Made by a program: the position numbers and the translations under genes. Below are positions 35,513 to 62,218 of a stretch of 64,000 nucleotides of DNA, piece by piece (positions within the stretch are counted from its first letter, which is position 1; every line of letters starts with the position of its first letter). The DNA is from a bacterium (lineage in GTDB: Bacteria > Bacillota > Sulfobacillia > UBA995), in contig JAVHLP010000003.1 in the NCBI GenBank assembly GCA_031082145.1, forward strand, positions 62,001-126,000. Reading direction: 5' to 3'. The notes beneath the pieces were generated by a model. It was not told the DNA's origin, did no database searches, and worked only from the letters and a program-made list of their open reading frames with translations.

Positions 35513-36901
35513 ATGCGCAAGCGCTGCACGGTGGCCATGCTGGCGGTGTGCCTGGTGGCGGCGGCGATCACCGCCTGTCCCGGCCGGCGGCCCCCGACAC
35601 TCATAGGTAACGGCGGGCCGGGGCCGGGTGAAGCCGGGCCGGCGGTGGAGAGCTACCATGGAGGATGGCGGCTGGGTCCCTTTGAGCAGGTGGTGGAGGT
35701 GGCCTGGGTCTCCCCCGGGCAGCTCGGGTACCGGGCCCGTCACGGGGGCGGGGAGGAACTGGGCCGCCTAGGCGTCTTGACGGGGACGGCCGATCGGGCG
35801 TTAGTGGTGGCGGAAGACTGCGTGTACCTGGGTGACCCGTTGCCGGCGGAATTAGGGTGCATCTACAGCGTTCTGTCCGACTTGGGTAACCGCACTCACT
35901 ACATCCGTCCCGATGGCACCCGGCAGGATTTCCCCGCCTTCTTCTACCGGCTGTCGCCTTCCCGCGAGCAAGCCGTCTTGTTCACCAGCCCGCCGGTCCT
36001 CTTGGAGTTCATGACCGGCCGGAGCCTGATCTTGCCGGATGACCTCCATCACGAGTGGCCGGCCATGGCGGTTGGCCTGCGCTGGTCGCCCTGCGAGCGG
36101 CTGCTCCTCTACGAGGACTGGCACAACGGCAGTCTGGTCATCCTGCGTACCCTGGACGGCGAAGAGGAGCTGCGCATCGAGGACGAGGGCTGGTCCAGCA
36201 TCGAGGCGGCCTGGTCGCCCGACGGGAGACGCATCGCCTTTCTGTCCTGGCGGACCGGGGAGCCCTATGCCTACAGAGGCGATTACGACTGCCGCCTCAC
36301 CATCGGCCGGAGACTGGGCATCCTCTGCTTTGAACCCGGGGAGATCTCCTACCTGCCCGGGCAGCCGATGGTCTTCGGTCGTCCCGTCTGGTGCCCGGCT
36401 GGTCGCCGGGTGGCCTTCGCGGCGGGGGCCGAGAAGCCCGGCGGGGAGATAGAATACCGGGTCCTGAGCGAGATCTGGGTTCACGATACTGTCACCGGAG
36501 AGAGCAGCAAGGTGACCAGTGAGCGCAGCGGTATCCACGGCAAGCAGCCCGTGGCCTGGTCGCCCCAGGGAGACCGGCTCCTGTTCGTCGCCAGTTCCGG
36601 AGACGAGTGGGCCGACTGGGTGGTGGACTTGGCCACCGGGCTGGAGACGAGAGTGGGGACCCCGGACCGGGCGGCCTGGCTGCCTGACGGACGGCTGCTC
36701 CAAGTCGTCACCGTCGCCGGCGGGGTCCCGGGCCAGGCGCTTGAACTCCTCGACTCCGCCGGGGGAGTTACGCGCCTCCTGGAAGCGGCCCGCATCGGGG
36801 GGATCGTCGTTATCGGCAACGGATGGTTCGGCGGGGAGCACGTTGGGCTGATCCTGGAAGAAGAGCCCGGTCGGGAGTTCGTGGTGGTGCTCCCGCTCTA
36901 G
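35513..36901 (+). CDS. Propeller-type lipoprotein (TolB/WD40-like)
   Basis: 462-residue lipoprotein with signal and lipobox AITAC (about residue 22). Repeated strand patterns with WSPDGRRIAFLS, WSPQGDRLLFVASSG, WSPCERLLLYEDW and WCPAGRRVAFAAG are the hallmark of TolB-like/WD40-like beta-propellers. It is expected outside the membrane, where it could sense or bind something. It follows the FN3 gene by 4 bases and closes the operon; the convergent methyltransferase gene overlaps its last 4 bases. Confidence 0.8.
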   Translation: MRKRCTVAMLAVCLVAAAITACPGRRPPTLIGNGGPGPGEAGPAVESYHGGWRLGPFEQVVEVAWVSPGQLGYRARHGGGEELGRLGVLTGTADRALVVAEDCVYLGDPLPAELGCIYSVLSDLGNRTHYIRPDGTRQDFPAFFYRLSPSREQAVLFTSPPVLLEFMTGRSLILPDDLHHEWPAMAVGLRWSPCERLLLYEDWHNGSLVILRTLDGEEELRIEDEGWSSIEAAWSPDGRRIAFLSWRTGEPYAYRGDYDCRLTIGRRLGILCFEPGEISYLPGQPMVFGRPVWCPAGRRVAFAAGAEKPGGEIEYRVLSEIWVHDTVTGESSKVTSERSGIHGKQPVAWSPQGDRLLFVASSGDEWADWVVDLATGLETRVGTPDRAAWLPDGRLLQVVTVAGGVPGQALELLDSAGGVTRLLEAARIGGIVVIGNGWFGGEHVGLILEEEPGREFVVVLPL

Positions 36902-56209: not shown

Positions 56210-56227
56210 CCGGCTTGAGGAAGAGCG

Positions 56228-57430
56228 ATGTTTGATCTTGTCATCGAGAACGTGCGGGTGCTCACCGTGTCTCCCCGGGGGACAATTTCCCGGGGCGCGG
56301 TGGCCATAAAGGCGGGCCGGATCGCAGCCGTCGGCGCCGGTTCCGACTTCGCCGGGGCCGCCTCCCGCCACCGGTTGGACGGCGAGGGGCTCACCCTGGC
56401 CCCGGGGTTGGTGGACTGCCACTCGCACCTCATGGAATACGCTACCGCCGGCGTCCACCGGATCGGCCCGCCCGGCCAGGCGATGGCGGGGGTGGCCAAC
56501 CTCTTCCGGTCCCGCTGCGCCGGCATCGTGGCCAACGGCGAGCACCACCTGGGCCATCCCGTCCTGGCCCAGGAGACTCAGACTTACATCGACCTGGCCT
56601 CCCTTTTTCCCGGCAAGACGCGGCTGGCGGCCGGCTTCTGCATCCTGGGGACCGATCCCCTGGCGGTGACCGCCTCGGCCCGGCCGGGAGAGGTTCTGAC
56701 CCTCGCCGACCTCGGCGCGGCCGTGCTCGAGGAGGCGGCCCGGCACTCCCAGTTCCCCGGCGAGAGCCTCTTCCTCACCGCCACCGTGGCCAACCTGCCG
56801 CCGCACCTCGTGCCGCGGGCCGGCGAGCTATGCCTGGCCCCGGAGCAGATCAGGGCTTTCGTAAGGGTGTTTCATGACCGGGGCAAGCGGGTCGGGGCCC
56901 ATGTGGAGGGCGAGGAGGGGATCCGGGCCTTCCTCGACGCCGGCGGCGACGTCCTGCACCATGCCCACGGCCTCACCCCGGACCTCATGCACCGGGTAGC
57001 CTCTGCCGGGGTAGCCCTGGTGGCCACTCCCCACGGTGGGACGGGCCGGGCGCCCAGCTCCCCGGCGGAGATCGCCAGGGCCGTAGCGGCGGGCATCCAA
57101 GTGGCCATCGCCACCGACGCCTACCTGCCCAAGCACCCCGGGGCAGTCTGGCTGGAGGAGCCGGCGGGTTTCGAGTATGGCCCGGACCACCTCCTGGCCC
57201 TGGCCCACCCGGTGTTCAGGCTTCTCCGGGAGCAGGGGCGGGACGAGAACGCCATTCTGGCCCTGATCACCCGCAACGCGGCCGAGATTCTCGATCTGGA
57301 CGGGGGCAGCATAGAGCCGGGCCGCCCGGCCGACCTCGTACTGGCCGACGGCATCCCCGGCCTGGAGGTCACCGGTCCGGAGGGCATCCGTAAGGTCTTC
57401 GTCAATGGCGGGTTGTTCCGGGACGGTTGA
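56228..57430 (+). CDS. Metal-dependent amidohydrolase
   Basis: 400-residue amidohydrolase-superfamily protein (imidazolonepropionase/dihydroorotase branch). Metal ligands: His-Ser-His in PGLVDCHSHLMEY, His in GAHVEGEEG, HHAHGLTPDL and Asp in AIATDAYLPKHPG; C-terminal EILDLDGGSIEPGRPADLVL is the usual small beta-domain. The substrate is a cyclic amide or amidine, not identified. ATG 56228 follows TTGAGGAAGAGCG and is 18 bases after the permease stop. Confidence 0.85.
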   Translation: MFDLVIENVRVLTVSPRGTISRGAVAIKAGRIAAVGAGSDFAGAASRHRLDGEGLTLAPGLVDCHSHLMEYATAGVHRIGPPGQAMAGVANLFRSRCAGIVANGEHHLGHPVLAQETQTYIDLASLFPGKTRLAAGFCILGTDPLAVTASARPGEVLTLADLGAAVLEEAARHSQFPGESLFLTATVANLPPHLVPRAGELCLAPEQIRAFVRVFHDRGKRVGAHVEGEEGIRAFLDAGGDVLHHAHGLTPDLMHRVASAGVALVATPHGGTGRAPSSPAEIARAVAAGIQVAIATDAYLPKHPGAVWLEEPAGFEYGPDHLLALAHPVFRLLREQGRDENAILALITRNAAEILDLDGGSIEPGRPADLVLADGIPGLEVTGPEGIRKVFVNGGLFRDG

Positions 57431-57459
57431 ACCTCACCGCGCGCAGGGCCCCGCTGGGG

Positions 57460-57786
57460 TCAGGCCACGAGCGTCCACACGAGAAACAACCCGGCGATGA
57501 TGAGAAGCCCGGCCCAGTACTTGCGGTGCTCCCTCCGCGGGCCAAACAAGCCGGTCACGGACTGGATGGTGACGGCCAGGGCCACGAGGTGCAGCATGGA
57601 GGCAGTCTGCTCTGCGCCCAGCCCTAGGGACACCCCGGCCAGAAAGACCAGGATGGCCAGAAGCTGCGCGGCCGGCCGTATCCAGCGCCGGGTCCGCCTC
57701 GCAATCGCCAGAATGGGGAGGGCCAGCAAGTTCAGGAGCACCAGCGGCACCAGGACAGTGAACAAGTAGCCCCACAAGTAGCCCAC
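57460..57786 (-). CDS. Small membrane protein of unknown function
   Basis: 108 residues with four hydrophobic helices (LWGYLFTVLVPLVLLNLLAL, PAAQLLAILVFLAGVSLGLG, LHLVALAVTIQSVTGLF, YWAGLLIIAGLFLVWTLVA). GTG at 57786 is preceded by GAGGAGGGATCGCT, a strong ribosome site. No family recognised. Confidence 0.6.
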   Translation of the reverse strand: MGYLWGYLFTVLVPLVLLNLLALPILAIARRTRRWIRPAAQLLAILVFLAGVSLGLGAEQTASMLHLVALAVTIQSVTGLFGPRREHRKYWAGLLIIAGLFLVWTLVA

Positions 57787-57833
57787 AGCGATCCCTCCTC
57801 AGGTGTCTGAGCCCCCCGACCGAGCGGATTCCT

Positions 57834-57882
57834 GCCCCGAGCGTTCGGCCGACGGGCAAGGCCGGTCCGGGCCGCTCGGGGC
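57834..57882. repeat. Inverted repeat downstream of the broken membrane protein gene
   Basis: GCCCCGAGCG (57834-57843) and CGCTCGGGGC (57873-57882) are perfect 10-base complements with a 29-base GC-rich spacer containing smaller complementary parts. It may act as a terminator for the minus-strand gene ending at 57888. Confidence 0.35.
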
Positions 57883-57887
57883 CAATT

Positions 57888-58570
57888 TCAACTAGATGAT
57901 CCGGCCCCGGCCACCTTCTCGTCAAGTGTCCTGAGAATACTGGGGCCGATGGCCATGGCCCAGTCCCCGGCACCCTCCTCAACCGCGGCGCCGTGCGCAG
58001 CGGAGCTGAGCAAGGCCATCGTCTGAGCGAGCACAGCTCTCTCGGCCTCGGCCAGAACGCTGGCCTCGGTGAGTGCGCTGAGGAGATGTCCGGTGCCCTC
58101 GAGCCGCCCGGGGGCTATCCCACGAGCATCGGCCATCAGCAAGAGCCGCTTCTCAATCTCATAGGCCAGACCGGCCAGCGCAAGGCTGGCGTCACACGCC
58201 GCGCCACCGACTGGAGCGACCGCTCTTCCTGAACGGCCTGGGGAGGAGGAGTACGGGGGCTCCTGCGAGGGAGCGAGGGTGCGGGGGAGAGGAGACCGGC
58301 GGCCTGGGCGCTGGCCGTCAGCCCCTGCAGTTCTCTGAGTTTGATCGTCAACCCGCTCGGAAGCTTGATGGACTTCACCAGGGGCGCGACCCAGGGGAGG
58401 ATGGCGATGACGAAGAGGGTGATAGTGGCGGCATCAACGACCACAGCGGGCCAGATGAGGTGAGCCAAGACTATCACCAGAGCGCCTGACGAGATGATCA
58501 CCCGCACTCGGAAGAGCGCCTTCAACTCCTTGTCCACTCCCCCGGTGAGCGGTGGACTGCTTGCCGGCAT
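57888..58570 (-). pseudogene. Frameshifted membrane protein gene of unknown function
   Basis: The first part (58570 down to about 58190) begins with ATG after GGAGGGAGTCGACC and has two hydrophobic helices (VRVIISSGALVIVLAHLIWP, ATITLFVIAILPWVAPLV). It runs to QEERSLQSVARR, then the frame changes. The minus-strand reading one base back continues DASLALAGLAYEIEKRLLL and a helical domain ending LRTLDEKVAGAGSSS at 57888, which looks like the second half of the same protein (a soluble domain with an AHG motif). A one-base deletion near 58192-58200 explains this. Not intact as sequenced. Confidence 0.55.
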
Positions 58571-58831
58571 GGTCGACTCCCTCCGTTCCACTGCCGGGGC
58601 ACCCGGGTGCCGGTAGCGCCTGAACGCCTGAGCCATTCGCTCCCAGGAGCGGCAGAACCTCCCGCAGACGGAAGAGAAGCAGACGGGCTTCGGCCTATCC
58701 GGCTGTCCGAAGGCGAACTGACTTAAGGCGAGCACTGAGTACGGCGATGACCCCATGTTCAGGCCGGTGGGCCATCAGCGCGACGGGTGTGACGGAGGAA
58801 TGGTCGTGCCCGGCTCCCGCCTAGCCCCACC
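58571..58831. other. Intergenic region, nothing recognised
   Basis: About 260 bases between the frameshifted gene and the next gene fragments. Open frames here have no ribosome site and atypical composition. I see only short scattered palindromes. Confidence 0.4.
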
Positions 58832-59014
58832 CTCAATCCCTGCTCCCTACCGCGTTATGGCATCATCTTGACTGTGGGCGCCGGCCGGAAGGACATCCTG
58901 ATCCAGTTTGGCTCCGAGGCCCTAGCCGTTTCCCCTAGCGGCGTGCTTCTGGGCGTCATCATCTTTGCCCTGGCCGGTCCGGCCGTCTTATCACAAAAGG
59001 CGTCGTTGCCATAG
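58832..59014 (+). pseudogene. Gene fragment encoding a transmembrane segment
   Basis: An open stretch on the plus strand reads YGIILTVGAGRKDILIQFGS and then a hydrophobic helix SPSGVLLGVIIFALAGPAVL before TAG at 59012. Third codon positions are almost all G or C, as in real genes of this genome. No start with ribosome site is visible, and the same DNA is the non-coding-like tail of the minus-strand gene at 58855-59412. It looks like a remnant. Confidence 0.35.
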
Positions 59015-59412
59015 AAAGCAATGGCCACGTCGATGGTCTCCAGGAGAGAGCGAACTACTGGTCGCGCTGCATCCTCGAATCCCATGGACACCAGCTTGCG
59101 CGAAGCTGCGGACATCGAAACCATGCGGGCAACCAGCATGAACATCTTCCCTACCTTGCCACGTTCTTCGCCATGTAGTCCGCTCTCTAGAGTCTTCTCC
59201 AACTGAAAGAGCATGTGTATTGCTTCTTCCGTTAGCACCAGCCATTTCGCAAGATGAATCCGCGCATTCTCTAGGTTTCGCGACTCGTGATGATCCAAGA
59301 CGTCGGCCATGTCAACGCGATTCGCTTGAGGCAACAACCCCCTGTGGAACCTGTTCCATAACGTCTCGGCCTGCTTACGGACTTCGCAACGCGGCGTGTT
59401 GTCCACCGTCAC
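58855..59412 (-). CDS. Unknown protein, probably truncated
   Basis: 185 residues from GTG at 59412 (AGGTGGGC upstream). Residues up to about 137 look genuine: helical, with HLAKWLVLTEEAIHMLFQLE and GFEDAARPVVRSLLETIDVA, reminiscent of DUF5677-type helical proteins. The last 45 residues (from about 59000 down) have odd composition and lie over a plus-strand gene fragment, so the true C-terminus has been lost. Its start is 26 bases from an attC-like site. Confidence 0.5.
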   Translation of the reverse strand: MTVDNTPRCEVRKQAETLWNRFHRGLLPQANRVDMADVLDHHESRNLENARIHLAKWLVLTEEAIHMLFQLEKTLESGLHGEERGKVGKMFMLVARMVSMSAASRKLVSMGFEDAARPVVRSLLETIDVAIAFYGNDAFCDKTAGPARAKMMTPRSTPLGETARASEPNWIRMSFRPAPTVKMMP

Positions 59413-59437
59413 CCATGCCCACCTTTCAAGTCAAGCT

Positions 59438-59517
59438 GCCCAACGGTATGCGGCTGAGCGGCGGCGTTGCGTGGAAGCGCGGACGGCTTCACCTGTCCGC
59501 TCGAGCCGCTGTTATCC
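59438..59517 (-). other. attC-like site 1 (downstream of brnA)
   Basis: On the minus strand: GGATAAC, a 12-bp stem interrupted by one extra base, a 35-base central part and GTTGGGC. The stem is GCGGCTGAGCGG (59450-59461) with CCGCTCGAGCCGC (59497-59509), leaving G59503 bulged. GTTGGGC fits the GTTRRRY core of integron attC sites, and a bulged G on the recombining strand is an attC hallmark. It lies directly after brnA. Confidence 0.45.
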
Positions 59518-59520
59518 GGC

Positions 59521-59736
59521 CTACTGCCACTTCATGGAGGGCTTACGGTTCTGGGCGACGCAGTCTCGGAGGTAGAGGTTTATGAGGCTCTGGTACGGAA
59601 TCCCGGTCTCTTCCCCCAGCGACTTGAAGTAGGCGATGACATCTTCACCCAAGCGGATAGTAACCTGCTTCTTCAGTTTCCTGACGTAAGGGTTCTTGCG
59701 TCCGGCCATCTTCGCGAAGTCGTATTCGTCTCTCAT
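59521..59736 (-). CDS. brnA: BrnA-type antitoxin
   Basis: 71-residue ribbon-helix-helix antitoxin: RKLKKQVTIRLGEDVIAYFK, then GIPYQSLINLYLRDCVAQ. It binds and neutralises the toxin encoded just upstream and represses the operon. Its ATG overlaps the toxin stop as ATGA (59733-59736). The stop is immediately followed by an attC-like hairpin. Confidence 0.85.
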   Translation of the reverse strand: MRDEYDFAKMAGRKNPYVRKLKKQVTIRLGEDVIAYFKSLGEETGIPYQSLINLYLRDCVAQNRKPSMKWQ

Positions 59737-60017
59737 GACACACCTCTCGCATATGTCTCACGCTCAGTCTTGGTGGCTCTACGGGCGGAGATGATCCGGA
59801 TGACATCGTCCGGGCCCCGCAGGCAGTGCACCACCACAAGCGCCCTGGCCATGCTACTGAGGCCGAGGAGTAGGAAGCGATTCTCTTCAACCGAGTGGTC
59901 GGGGTCGTCGAAGACAATGGCCTCATCATCGAAGAATGCTGTCTTGGCCTCCGCGAACCAGATTCCATGCTTCCGGTAGTTGGACCTGTTTTTCTCTTCA
60001 TCCCACTCAAACCTCAT
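59733..60017 (-). CDS. brnT: BrnT-type toxin (DUF497)
   Basis: 94-residue RelE-fold RNase toxin: MRFEWDEEKNRSNYRKHGI at the N-terminus, FAEAKTAFFDDEAIVFDD, SSMARALVVVHCLRG and a terminal RIISARRATKTERETY, all typical of BrnT. It cleaves mRNA and inhibits translation unless held by BrnA. ATG at 60017 is used (GGAGGATCCG upstream) rather than one 12 bases earlier. Toxin-first order is usual for this family. Confidence 0.88.
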   Translation of the reverse strand: MRFEWDEEKNRSNYRKHGIWFAEAKTAFFDDEAIVFDDPDHSVEENRFLLLGLSSMARALVVVHCLRGPDDVIRIISARRATKTERETYARGVS

Positions 60018-60098
60018 CGGATCCTCCATACACCGTAGATATATCGTAGTGCCTCCGCGTGGTCACGTCAAGCACCCAGCGCGGGCCACAAGCTGGCC

Positions 60099-60181
60099 GC
60101 ATAACGGTCAGCCGTTCACCTGCGCGAGCCCACCCATCTGATCGGCCCCAGGCCGGCGTCCGGTGGAACGGCTGGGTAGCC
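60099..60181 (-). other. attC-like site 2 (upstream of brnT)
   Basis: On the minus strand: GGCTACC, a 12-bp stem with one bulge, a 41-base centre and GTTATGC. The stem pairs CAGCCGTTCACC (60109-60120) with GGTGGAACGGCTG (60162-60174), leaving G60165 bulged. Its outer parts (GCATAACGGT and GGGTAGCCGGCC on plus) match those of site 1 (GCCCAACGGT and TGTTATCCGGCC). One core is degenerate (ACC instead of AAC). Confidence 0.4.
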
Positions 60182-60404
60182 GGCCTTGGGGGGAATGCGT
60201 CCTATCCCGCCTCGCCCCAGTCGGCTCTCAGCATGACGCTGACCTGGAGTTGGCAGCTGATGGCACGGAGGAATGGCAGAAGAACATGGGCCCTCCCGGC
60301 TACCCCGGTTCCTACTTCAGGCGGCCCCTCAACGGTCGCCGGTCGGAGGAATCCGGCTCACAAGGTGACATTATCAGTCCGCCCACAACCGCCGAGGTCA
60401 GCTG

Positions 60405-60434
60405 TTGACACCCCCCTGGTGCACCGCATAGAAT
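60405..60434 (+). promoter_or_regulatory. Sigma-A promoter of the ylxM-ffh-rpsP operon
   Basis: TTGACA (60405-60410), an 18-base spacer and TAGAAT (60429-60434). Start of transcription near 60441, about 35 bases before ylxM. Confidence 0.75.
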
Positions 60435-60474
60435 ATCCCCGTAAAGGTCTAAGCCTTGACAGTTAGGGACGGCG

Positions 60475-60903
60475 GTGAGGCGCGTGCGGGAGCGCTCCCT
60501 GCTGGACCGGGTGGTCAAGGCAGCCCGCCTCTTTGACGCTTACGGCGGGCTGCTCACCCCCAAACAGCGAGAAGTCCTGGAGCTGCACTACTTCCAGGAC
60601 CTCTCGCTGGGTGAGATTGCCGGTCACTGGGACACCAGCCGCCAGGCCGTCTACGATCTGGCCCGGCGGGCCTTGCGGCACCTTGAGGACTACGAGGAGA
60701 AGCTGGGCCTGGTGGCTCGGGCAAGTGCGGCCGGTGCCCGGTGGGAGAGGATGTCCGATTCGGCCCGGTCCCTGGAGCAGGCCCTCGTGGGGGCCGGGCA
60801 AGCCCTGAAACAGGGCGACGGTGAACTGGCCCGGAGGGAGCTCGACCGGGCCCTGATCGCTCTGGAAGGCCTGCGGGAAGGTATACTTCGGCGGGAGGAT
60901 TGA
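60475..60903 (+). CDS. ylxM: YlxM-like SRP-associated regulator
   Basis: 142-residue sigma-70 region-4-like helix-turn-helix protein (UPF0122): LLTPKQREVLELHYFQDLSL, EIAGHWDTSRQAVYDLARRA and LRHLEDYEEKLGL. YlxM modulates SRP assembly in Firmicutes and its gene normally precedes ffh. GTG at 60475 (alternative GTG at 60484). A C-terminal 60-residue helical part is longer than in Bacillus. ffh starts one base after its stop. Confidence 0.85.
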   Translation: MRRVRERSLLDRVVKAARLFDAYGGLLTPKQREVLELHYFQDLSLGEIAGHWDTSRQAVYDLARRALRHLEDYEEKLGLVARASAAGARWERMSDSARSLEQALVGAGQALKQGDGELARRELDRALIALEGLREGILRRED

Positions 60904-60904
60904 C

Positions 60905-62218
60905 ATGTTCGGCAACCTGACGGATCGGCTGCAAGGCATCTTCCGGAGCCTCAGGGGCCGGGGCCGGTTGACCGAGCGAGACGTGGACGACGCCTTGCGG
61001 GAAGTCAGGCTGGCCTTGCTGGAGGCCGACGTGAACTTCCGGGTGGCCCGCGACTTTGTGGCGGGCATCCGGGAGCGGGCCGTGGGGGCCGACGTCCTGG
61101 GCAGCTTGACGCCAGGGCAGCAAGTTATCAAGATCGTCCACGAAGCCCTGGTGGAGCTGCTGGGCTCGAGCGGGGCGGGCCTGGACCTCGGACAGAAGGT
61201 CCCCGGCGTGCTGGTGTTGATGGGCCTTCACGGTTCGGGCAAGACCACGACCGCGGCGAGGCTTGCCGTCTACCTGAAGGGGAAGAAGCGGCGGCCCTTG
61301 CTGGTGGGCGCGGACGTCTACCGGCCGGCCGCCGGGGAGCAGTTGGCGGTCCTTGCCAAGCAGGCCGGCGTCCCGGTTTGCCTGGCCCGGGAGGGCTCCG
61401 ACCCGGTGGCCGAGACCAGGCGGTTCTGTGAGGAAGCGGTATCTCTGGGTTGCGACACGGTCATCGTCGACACGGCCGGCCGGCTCCACCTGGACGGGGA
61501 GCTGATGGCCGAGATGGAGCGCTTTGGCCGGGAGGTGCGGCCCAGGGAGACCCTGCTGGTCGTGGATGCCATGACCGGGCAGGACGCGGTCAACGTGGCC
61601 CGGGCTTTCCAGGAACGGGTGGGGCTGGACGGGTTCGTGCTTACCAAGCTGGACGGCGATGCCCGGGGCGGGGCCGCGTTGTCGCTCCGGTCGGTTACCG
61701 GCCGGCCGATCAAGTTTGCCGGGGTGGGGGAGGGACTGGGGGCCCTGGAGGCTTTCCACCCCGAGCGCATGGCCTCCCGCATATTGGGCATGGGCGACGT
61801 GCTCACCCTGATTGAGCGGGCCGAGGCGGCGGTGGGTGAGGAAGCGGCCAGGGATTGGGAGCGGAAGATCCGGGAGGATGAGTTATCCCTGGAGGACTTC
61901 CGGGCCCAGTTGCGGCAAGTGAAGAAGCTGGGTCCCCTGGAGGACCTGCTGAAGCTGCTGCCGGGAGGCCGCCAGGTCCAGCAGGGGGTGGACCCGAGGG
62001 AGCTGGCCAGGGCGGAGGCCATTATCGGGTCGATGACCCGGGAGGAGCGGTTAAACCCGCCGATCATCGACGGGAGCCGCCGGCGGCGCATCGCCCGGGG
62101 CAGTGGCACCCGGGTCCAGGATGTGAACCGGCTCTTGAAGCAGTACGAGGAAGCCAGGAAAGTCTTCCGGCAGGTGGCCCGCATGCGGGGTCAGGGTCTC
62201 CGGTGGCCCCAACGATAA
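60905..62218 (+). CDS. ffh: Signal recognition particle protein Ffh
   Basis: 437-residue SRP54 GTPase. N domain (LTERDVDDALREVRLALLEA), G domain with LMGLHGSGKTTTAARLAVYL, VGADVYRPAAGEQLAVLAKQ, DTAGRLHLDGELMAEM, TKLDGDARGG and KFAGVGEGLGALEAFHP, and an M domain rich in Arg and Met ending ARMRGQGL. It binds signal sequences at the ribosome and pairs with FtsY. Ribosome site GGGAGGATTGAC. Confidence 0.97.
   Translation: MFGNLTDRLQGIFRSLRGRGRLTERDVDDALREVRLALLEADVNFRVARDFVAGIRERAVGADVLGSLTPGQQVIKIVHEALVELLGSSGAGLDLGQKVPGVLVLMGLHGSGKTTTAARLAVYLKGKKRRPLLVGADVYRPAAGEQLAVLAKQAGVPVCLAREGSDPVAETRRFCEEAVSLGCDTVIVDTAGRLHLDGELMAEMERFGREVRPRETLLVVDAMTGQDAVNVARAFQERVGLDGFVLTKLDGDARGGAALSLRSVTGRPIKFAGVGEGLGALEAFHPERMASRILGMGDVLTLIERAEAAVGEEAARDWERKIREDELSLEDFRAQLRQVKKLGPLEDLLKLLPGGRQVQQGVDPRELARAEAIIGSMTREERLNPPIIDGSRRRRIARGSGTRVQDVNRLLKQYEEARKVFRQVARMRGQGLRWPQR

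Follow-up and report, generated by a model that had tools for sequence, protein, structure and literature searches.

A probable brnT–brnA integron cassette between two attC sites in a Bacillota genome with no detected integron integrase

Introduction

Integron integrases (IntI) act on a folded strand of the attC site and recombine it at the G^TT of the R′ box, and toxin–antitoxin pairs stabilise integron arrays. The arrays known as CALINs have at least two attC sites that lie close together on one strand and bound small accessory genes, with no intI; loss of intI and off-target insertion in trans are both recognised routes to them (PMC8618304). In a large IntegronFinder 2 survey, integrons were extremely rare in Firmicutes (Bacillota): a single complete one, in Limnochorda pilosa, was reported along with a few CALINs (PMC9024848).

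The locus described here shares all of these features with known CALINs and differs from them in its Bacillota host, in which about 19 sites are spread over eight contigs. Like the toxin–antitoxin cassettes of the Vibrio superintegron type (PMC8618304), it is a two-gene type II cassette in a chromosomal array, apparently with its own promoter, but it is of the BrnT/BrnA family and lies in a two-site CALIN, whereas the Vibrio array has an integrase. The integron of the uncultured Eubacteriales bacterium SRR1628696_bin.3 (CAJXZV010000063.1; here G005) has the same type of attC site and small same-strand accessory genes, and differs in its intact IntI, with intI codirectional with the cassettes and attC on its 3′ side. 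CALINs and toxin–antitoxin cassettes are thus already known, and the Bacillota host is the less usual part.

Results

The original prediction placed a brnT–brnA pair between two attC-like hairpins. We found this layout in the window (the whole 64,000-nucleotide stretch of DNA that was analysed), with the following features.

60099..60181, minus strand: attC site 1, 83 bases, upstream of brnT; R″ GGCTACC, R′ GTTATGC, L″/L′ stem with one unpaired base
60043..60071, minus strand: promoter-like sequence TTGACG-17-TACGAT, inside the cassette and upstream of brnT; consensus scan, 9/12
59733..60029, minus strand: brnT, type II ribonuclease toxin, 98 amino acids; Pfam PF04365, E 9.2e-28; solved relative 7vd7, E 3.7e-14
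59521..59736, minus strand: brnA, CopG-like antitoxin, 71 amino acids; Pfam PF14384, E 1.2e-10
59438..59517, minus strand: attC site 2, the brnTA cassette's own attC, 80 bases; R″ GGATAAC, L″ GCT[C]GAGC, L′ GCTCAGC, R′ GTTGGGC
59444..60104, minus strand: predicted gene cassette, 661 bases, between the G^TT cut points expected in the R′ boxes; placed from box positions
58855..59412, minus strand: ORF just past site 2, probable next cassette gene, decayed; sub-threshold DUF5677 trace, Pfam E 0.01
60475..62218, plus strand: ylxM and ffh, a conserved host operon that flanks the array and lies outside it; SRP54, E 3e-68

Read along the minus strand, the order is site 1, brnT, brnA and site 2, which starts 4 bases past the brnA stop codon. 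The brnT stop overlaps the brnA start, and the proteins exceed the curated cut-offs of PF04365 and PF14384, as defines a BrnT/BrnA type II system; the pair probably works as an ordinary BrnT ribonuclease with its BrnA antitoxin. Transcription probably starts from the pair's own in-cassette promoter, a consensus match of a kind found twice in the region against 0.6 times expected in shuffles (a weak excess), and because this sequence lies within the cassette, brnTA expression would not need an integron promoter. We also compared, for each cassette, the complementarity of R″ to its own start with that to the start of the next cassette; the value of 5.69 against 5.42 (s.d. 0.12) in shuffles is marginal, and we therefore do not count it as evidence.

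Both hairpins carry R″ and R′ boxes at their ends, with departures from the RYYYAAC and GTTRRRY consensus. At site 2, R′ GTTGGGC fits and R″ GGATAAC departs twice; at site 1, R′ GTTATGC departs once and R″ GGCTACC is off consensus. The stem has about 12 pairs in each site, and the paired L″ and L′ boxes hold a single extrahelical C on the gene strand (G on the opposite strand); the geometry of L″ in site 2 agrees with that of the class 1 L″ GTT[C]AAGC. The R′ cores, the lengths of 80 to 83 bases and the single bulged G opposite the gene strand are all as first claimed. The GTTRRRY-like character of R′ stands in both sites; one small amendment is that R″ of site 1 lies off the RYYYAAC consensus. 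In a sequence scan, neither window hairpin showed a T tract of the terminator kind, an Rfam search returned no relevant family and a plasmid DNA similarity search gave no match. Judged by their sequence, both window hairpins are attC sites.

We examined the sites with three covariance models, the E-values of which are rough to a factor of about 5. The first, R1, was made from five sites on two other contigs of the studied genome (C29 and C33), with both window sites left out. In the 64-kb window it matched site 1 at 46.3 bits (E 1.7e-9) and site 2 at 42.8 bits (E 1.3e-8), and the next best place scored 18 bits. At the far end of the ORF at 58855..59412 we found no attC, R1 giving only 11 bits at 58778–58810. 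The class 1-only model R2 was built from the attC sites of 13 class 1 cassettes on annotated plasmids, with the terminal loop replaced by N. Its search of the surroundings of class 1 integrons and of IntI genes from many phyla, with the G005 locus left out, yielded 57 sites, and these class 1 and IntI-adjacent sites from other phyla, with nothing from the studied genome or its order, made up model R3. The circularity of R1, which rests on sites of the genome itself, is therefore avoided by the chain from R2 to R3. In the window R3 ranked site 2 first (30.7 bits, E 2.1e-4) and site 1 second (30.0 bits, E 2.9e-4), with the next match at 16.3 bits, and it additionally detected sites on C29 and C33 and in two same-order genomes, G004 and G005. 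We regard that third match (60383–60520, E 0.2), which overlaps the beginning of ylxM, as due to chance. The narrower R2 gave no match at either window site. Elsewhere it detected class 1 sites and some of those adjacent to IntI, while also missing the attC beside the intact G005 IntI, so its silence on the window sites says little.

The attC identity and cassette layout that had been proposed are thus borne out by R1 and R3, which both rank the two sites first in the window, far above chance. Two outcomes had been named as fatal to the proposal, the lack of a covariance-model match and the lack of any other copy of the hairpins in the genome; instead, both hairpins are matched and further sites are numerous. 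At E <= 2e-5, R1 detects 17 sites, which are spread over eight contigs (C8, C11, C22, C28, C29, C31, C33 and C34), C28 being that of the window, and R3 adds at least 2, which makes about 19 in the genome. The flanking pair of sites is therefore present as described, not as a lone pair but as part of a genome-wide set. A DNA search of the genome with the window region gave two further places, and three copies of the hairpin have a nearly identical stem. Two of seven pattern matches (C11:382505 and C29:95518) were dropped for want of an attC-like fold.

Sites share a common orientation within arrays. On C29 some have textbook boxes, such as the site at 36694 (GCCTAAC ... GTTAGGC), which fits the consensus in full. 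The largest attC array of the genome (G000:C29:31286-37172; L025 11287-17173) has seven to nine sites and adjoins an infC-like ORF. Its sites separate a series of genes that opens with GNAT and a small ORF; a ParE/RHH pair encoded on the other strand comes next, then a PIN/DUF6364 pair and a cassette of very short length. Beyond these lie an ORF that resembles a phosphotransferase together with a YCII gene, an ORF of 340 amino acids and, last, a MazG gene; the phosphotransferase label comes from reading the sequence, and Pfam gave no match for it. One C29 cassette is only 267 bases long. The C33 array, about 1 kb from the contig end, carries genes for GNAT, NUDIX, APH and DUF3795 proteins, as well as an orphan brnA and its attC. 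This orphan brnA and its attC (G000:C33:84007-84350; L024 18008-18351) are 89% identical to the window copy; the match breaks off close to the start of brnA, and no brnT was detected at this locus. Such gene functions are typical of cassettes (PMC8618304). The third-position GC of most array genes, about 0.63–0.75, is below that of the host genes next to the window array, about 0.87, and this lower value suggests that the cassette genes are of foreign origin.

A Bacillota (Firmicute) host, as had been proposed, is supported by the Spo0A protein of the genome, which exceeds its cut-off at 393 bits; the same cut-off is reached in only 1 of 14 control genomes. The window array is unlikely to be misbinned, because its own contig carries an ffh gene 80% identical to that of the same-family genome G001. 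Gene order is conserved in G001 for the ABC transporter, the permease and ylxM, and the interval of about 4.3 kb from permease to ylxM has no protein in common with the window interval, no brnTA and no R1 attC site. The stretch from permease to ylxM in the window (56210–60474) is a variable spot in an otherwise syntenic region, with different content in G001.

We searched the whole assembly (98.33% complete, 34 contigs) for an integrase with the IntI family model, with the Pfam family to which it belongs and with the IntI protein of G005, and none of the three revealed an IntI above cut-off. The search returned four tyrosine recombinases: XerD above its cut-off, a XerC-like protein below it and two others that no NCBIfam model matched at E<=1e-30. 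The absence of an integrase, part of the original prediction, thus holds for this assembly; in the same order, G005 has an intact and G004 a broken intI. With two same-strand attC sites 661 bases apart (a CALIN being defined by two or more attC sites spaced by less than 4 kb, with no intI nearby) and no intI above cut-off in the genome, the locus classes as a CALIN and not as a complete integron.

Among 151 relatives searched, G005 (same order; its record is named uncultured Eubacteriales bacterium) carries an intact IntI that scores 483.8 bits (cut-off 265). An R1 site of 82.6 bits lies about 740 bases from intI on the same contig, with a CYTH gene between them. At this locus (G005:C63; L070 658-2675) intI is codirectional with the cassettes and attC lies on the 3′ side of intI, and most IntI loci matched by R1 have the same arrangement. 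In G004, also of this order, intI is broken by a frame change and its C-terminal part is missing, and four attC sites lie on the same contig; this broken copy (G004:C82; L071 4301-5141) represents integrase decay within the order. G003, G007 and G045 have attC sites and no IntI at the threshold used, and G020 has an IntI of 373 bits and no R1 site. This last genome, a class relative, has three brnT homologues on separate contigs (G020 C62, C9, C313, C402). Run on 80 IntI loci from many phyla, R1 found 20 sites at E<=1e-3, one of them the G005 locus, and 19 of the 20 are on the intI strand. An IntI tree, one row of which (L100) was badly aligned, left the G005 protein unresolved among those of many phyla, and we make no claim from it.

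Two brnA homologues in G071, of another family of the class, have 81–82% DNA identity to the window brnA, which suggests horizontal transfer of the antitoxin gene. Their similarity runs up to the stop codon and no further, the very point at which the window copy gives way to attC, and by eye no attC-like sequence follows either; the gene therefore exists both with and without attC. The two copies (G071:C8; L203 4905-5150 and 9056-9271) lie 4.1 kb apart and are 90% identical to each other.

Discussion

We put at roughly 0.92 the probability that brnT–brnA is an integron cassette between two attC sites, a minimal CALIN that was inserted by an IntI in the past and is now missing intI. The window array reads best as one piece of a cassette set dispersed over the genome, the integrase of which was lost, was never assembled or acted in trans. 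In the course of events that we propose, an IntI of this lineage, using the folded attC strand, would have inserted the brnTA cassette into the intergenic stretch adjoining ylxM–ffh, and the neighbouring cassette (58855–59412) would have come along and since decayed. The integrase would then have disappeared from the genome, most likely by loss, because same-order relatives retain one intact and one broken copy. With the integrase missing, the cassettes would be stranded unless an IntI arrives again, and brnTA activity would select against loss of the cassette. We infer the past IntI-mediated insertion, loss as the cause of the missing integrase, use of the in-cassette promoter and toxin–antitoxin activity. 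Several points count against this reading: no excision, circle or within-species insertion polymorphism was seen, R″ of site 1 is off consensus, R2 missed both sites and the R″ complementarity is marginal.

An IntI acting in trans may instead have inserted the cassettes off target, at secondary sites, so that these loci never had an integron platform; we hold this to be quite possible, at a little under even odds. The sites are distributed over eight contigs, several of them singly, and the window array has only two, beside a conserved operon and in an interval that differs in G001; the mechanism is also among those proposed for CALINs (PMC8618304). The C29 array, however, with its seven to nine sites, resembles a former platform, and secondary-site insertion and later rearrangement are not separable with the genomes compared.

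Rather unlikely, in our estimate, is that a complete integron exists, with intI either missed in an assembly gap or carried by a plasmid that was lost, and that the arrays are a live integron split by assembly. An assembly of 34 contigs at 98.33% completeness leaves room for this, as do the C33 array about 1 kb from a contig end, the tendency of repeated attC sites to break assemblies (PMC9024848) and the intact IntI of G005 in the same order. Yet most sites, on the eight contigs, lie well inside long contigs beside housekeeping genes (ffh on C28, the infC-like ORF on C29), as expected of dispersed CALINs, and the family model and the G005 protein found only Xer and other recombinases in the whole genome.

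We give little credence to the idea of a live, integrase-less exchange network, in which the cassettes would still move with no resident IntI by means of an integrase supplied in trans from the community or of a host tyrosine recombinase. The cassette had been called mobile at the outset, a property that we, too, infer. Finally, that the hairpins belong to a repeat family peculiar to this lineage (REP-like elements, or terminators at gene ends), attC-like by convergence and unrelated to any integrase, would suit GC-rich imperfect palindromes directly after stop codons and the three copies with a nearly identical stem, but is scarcely credible, since R3, which contains no sequence from this genome, detects both hairpins, the same type of site lies beside the intact IntI of G005 and the broken one of G004, and the R boxes, the unpaired L-stem base, the common orientation within arrays and the lack of a terminator-like T tract fit attC.

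A brnTA cassette left in a CALIN by a past IntI insertion, our preferred reading, belongs to one uncultured Bacillota order in which intI is intact in G005, broken and accompanied by four attC sites in G004, and undetected, with attC sites present, in the studied genome, G003 and G007. Integrase loss and cassette fate are therefore directly comparable within a single order, and the lineage supplies natural attC sites and an IntI for recombination assays.
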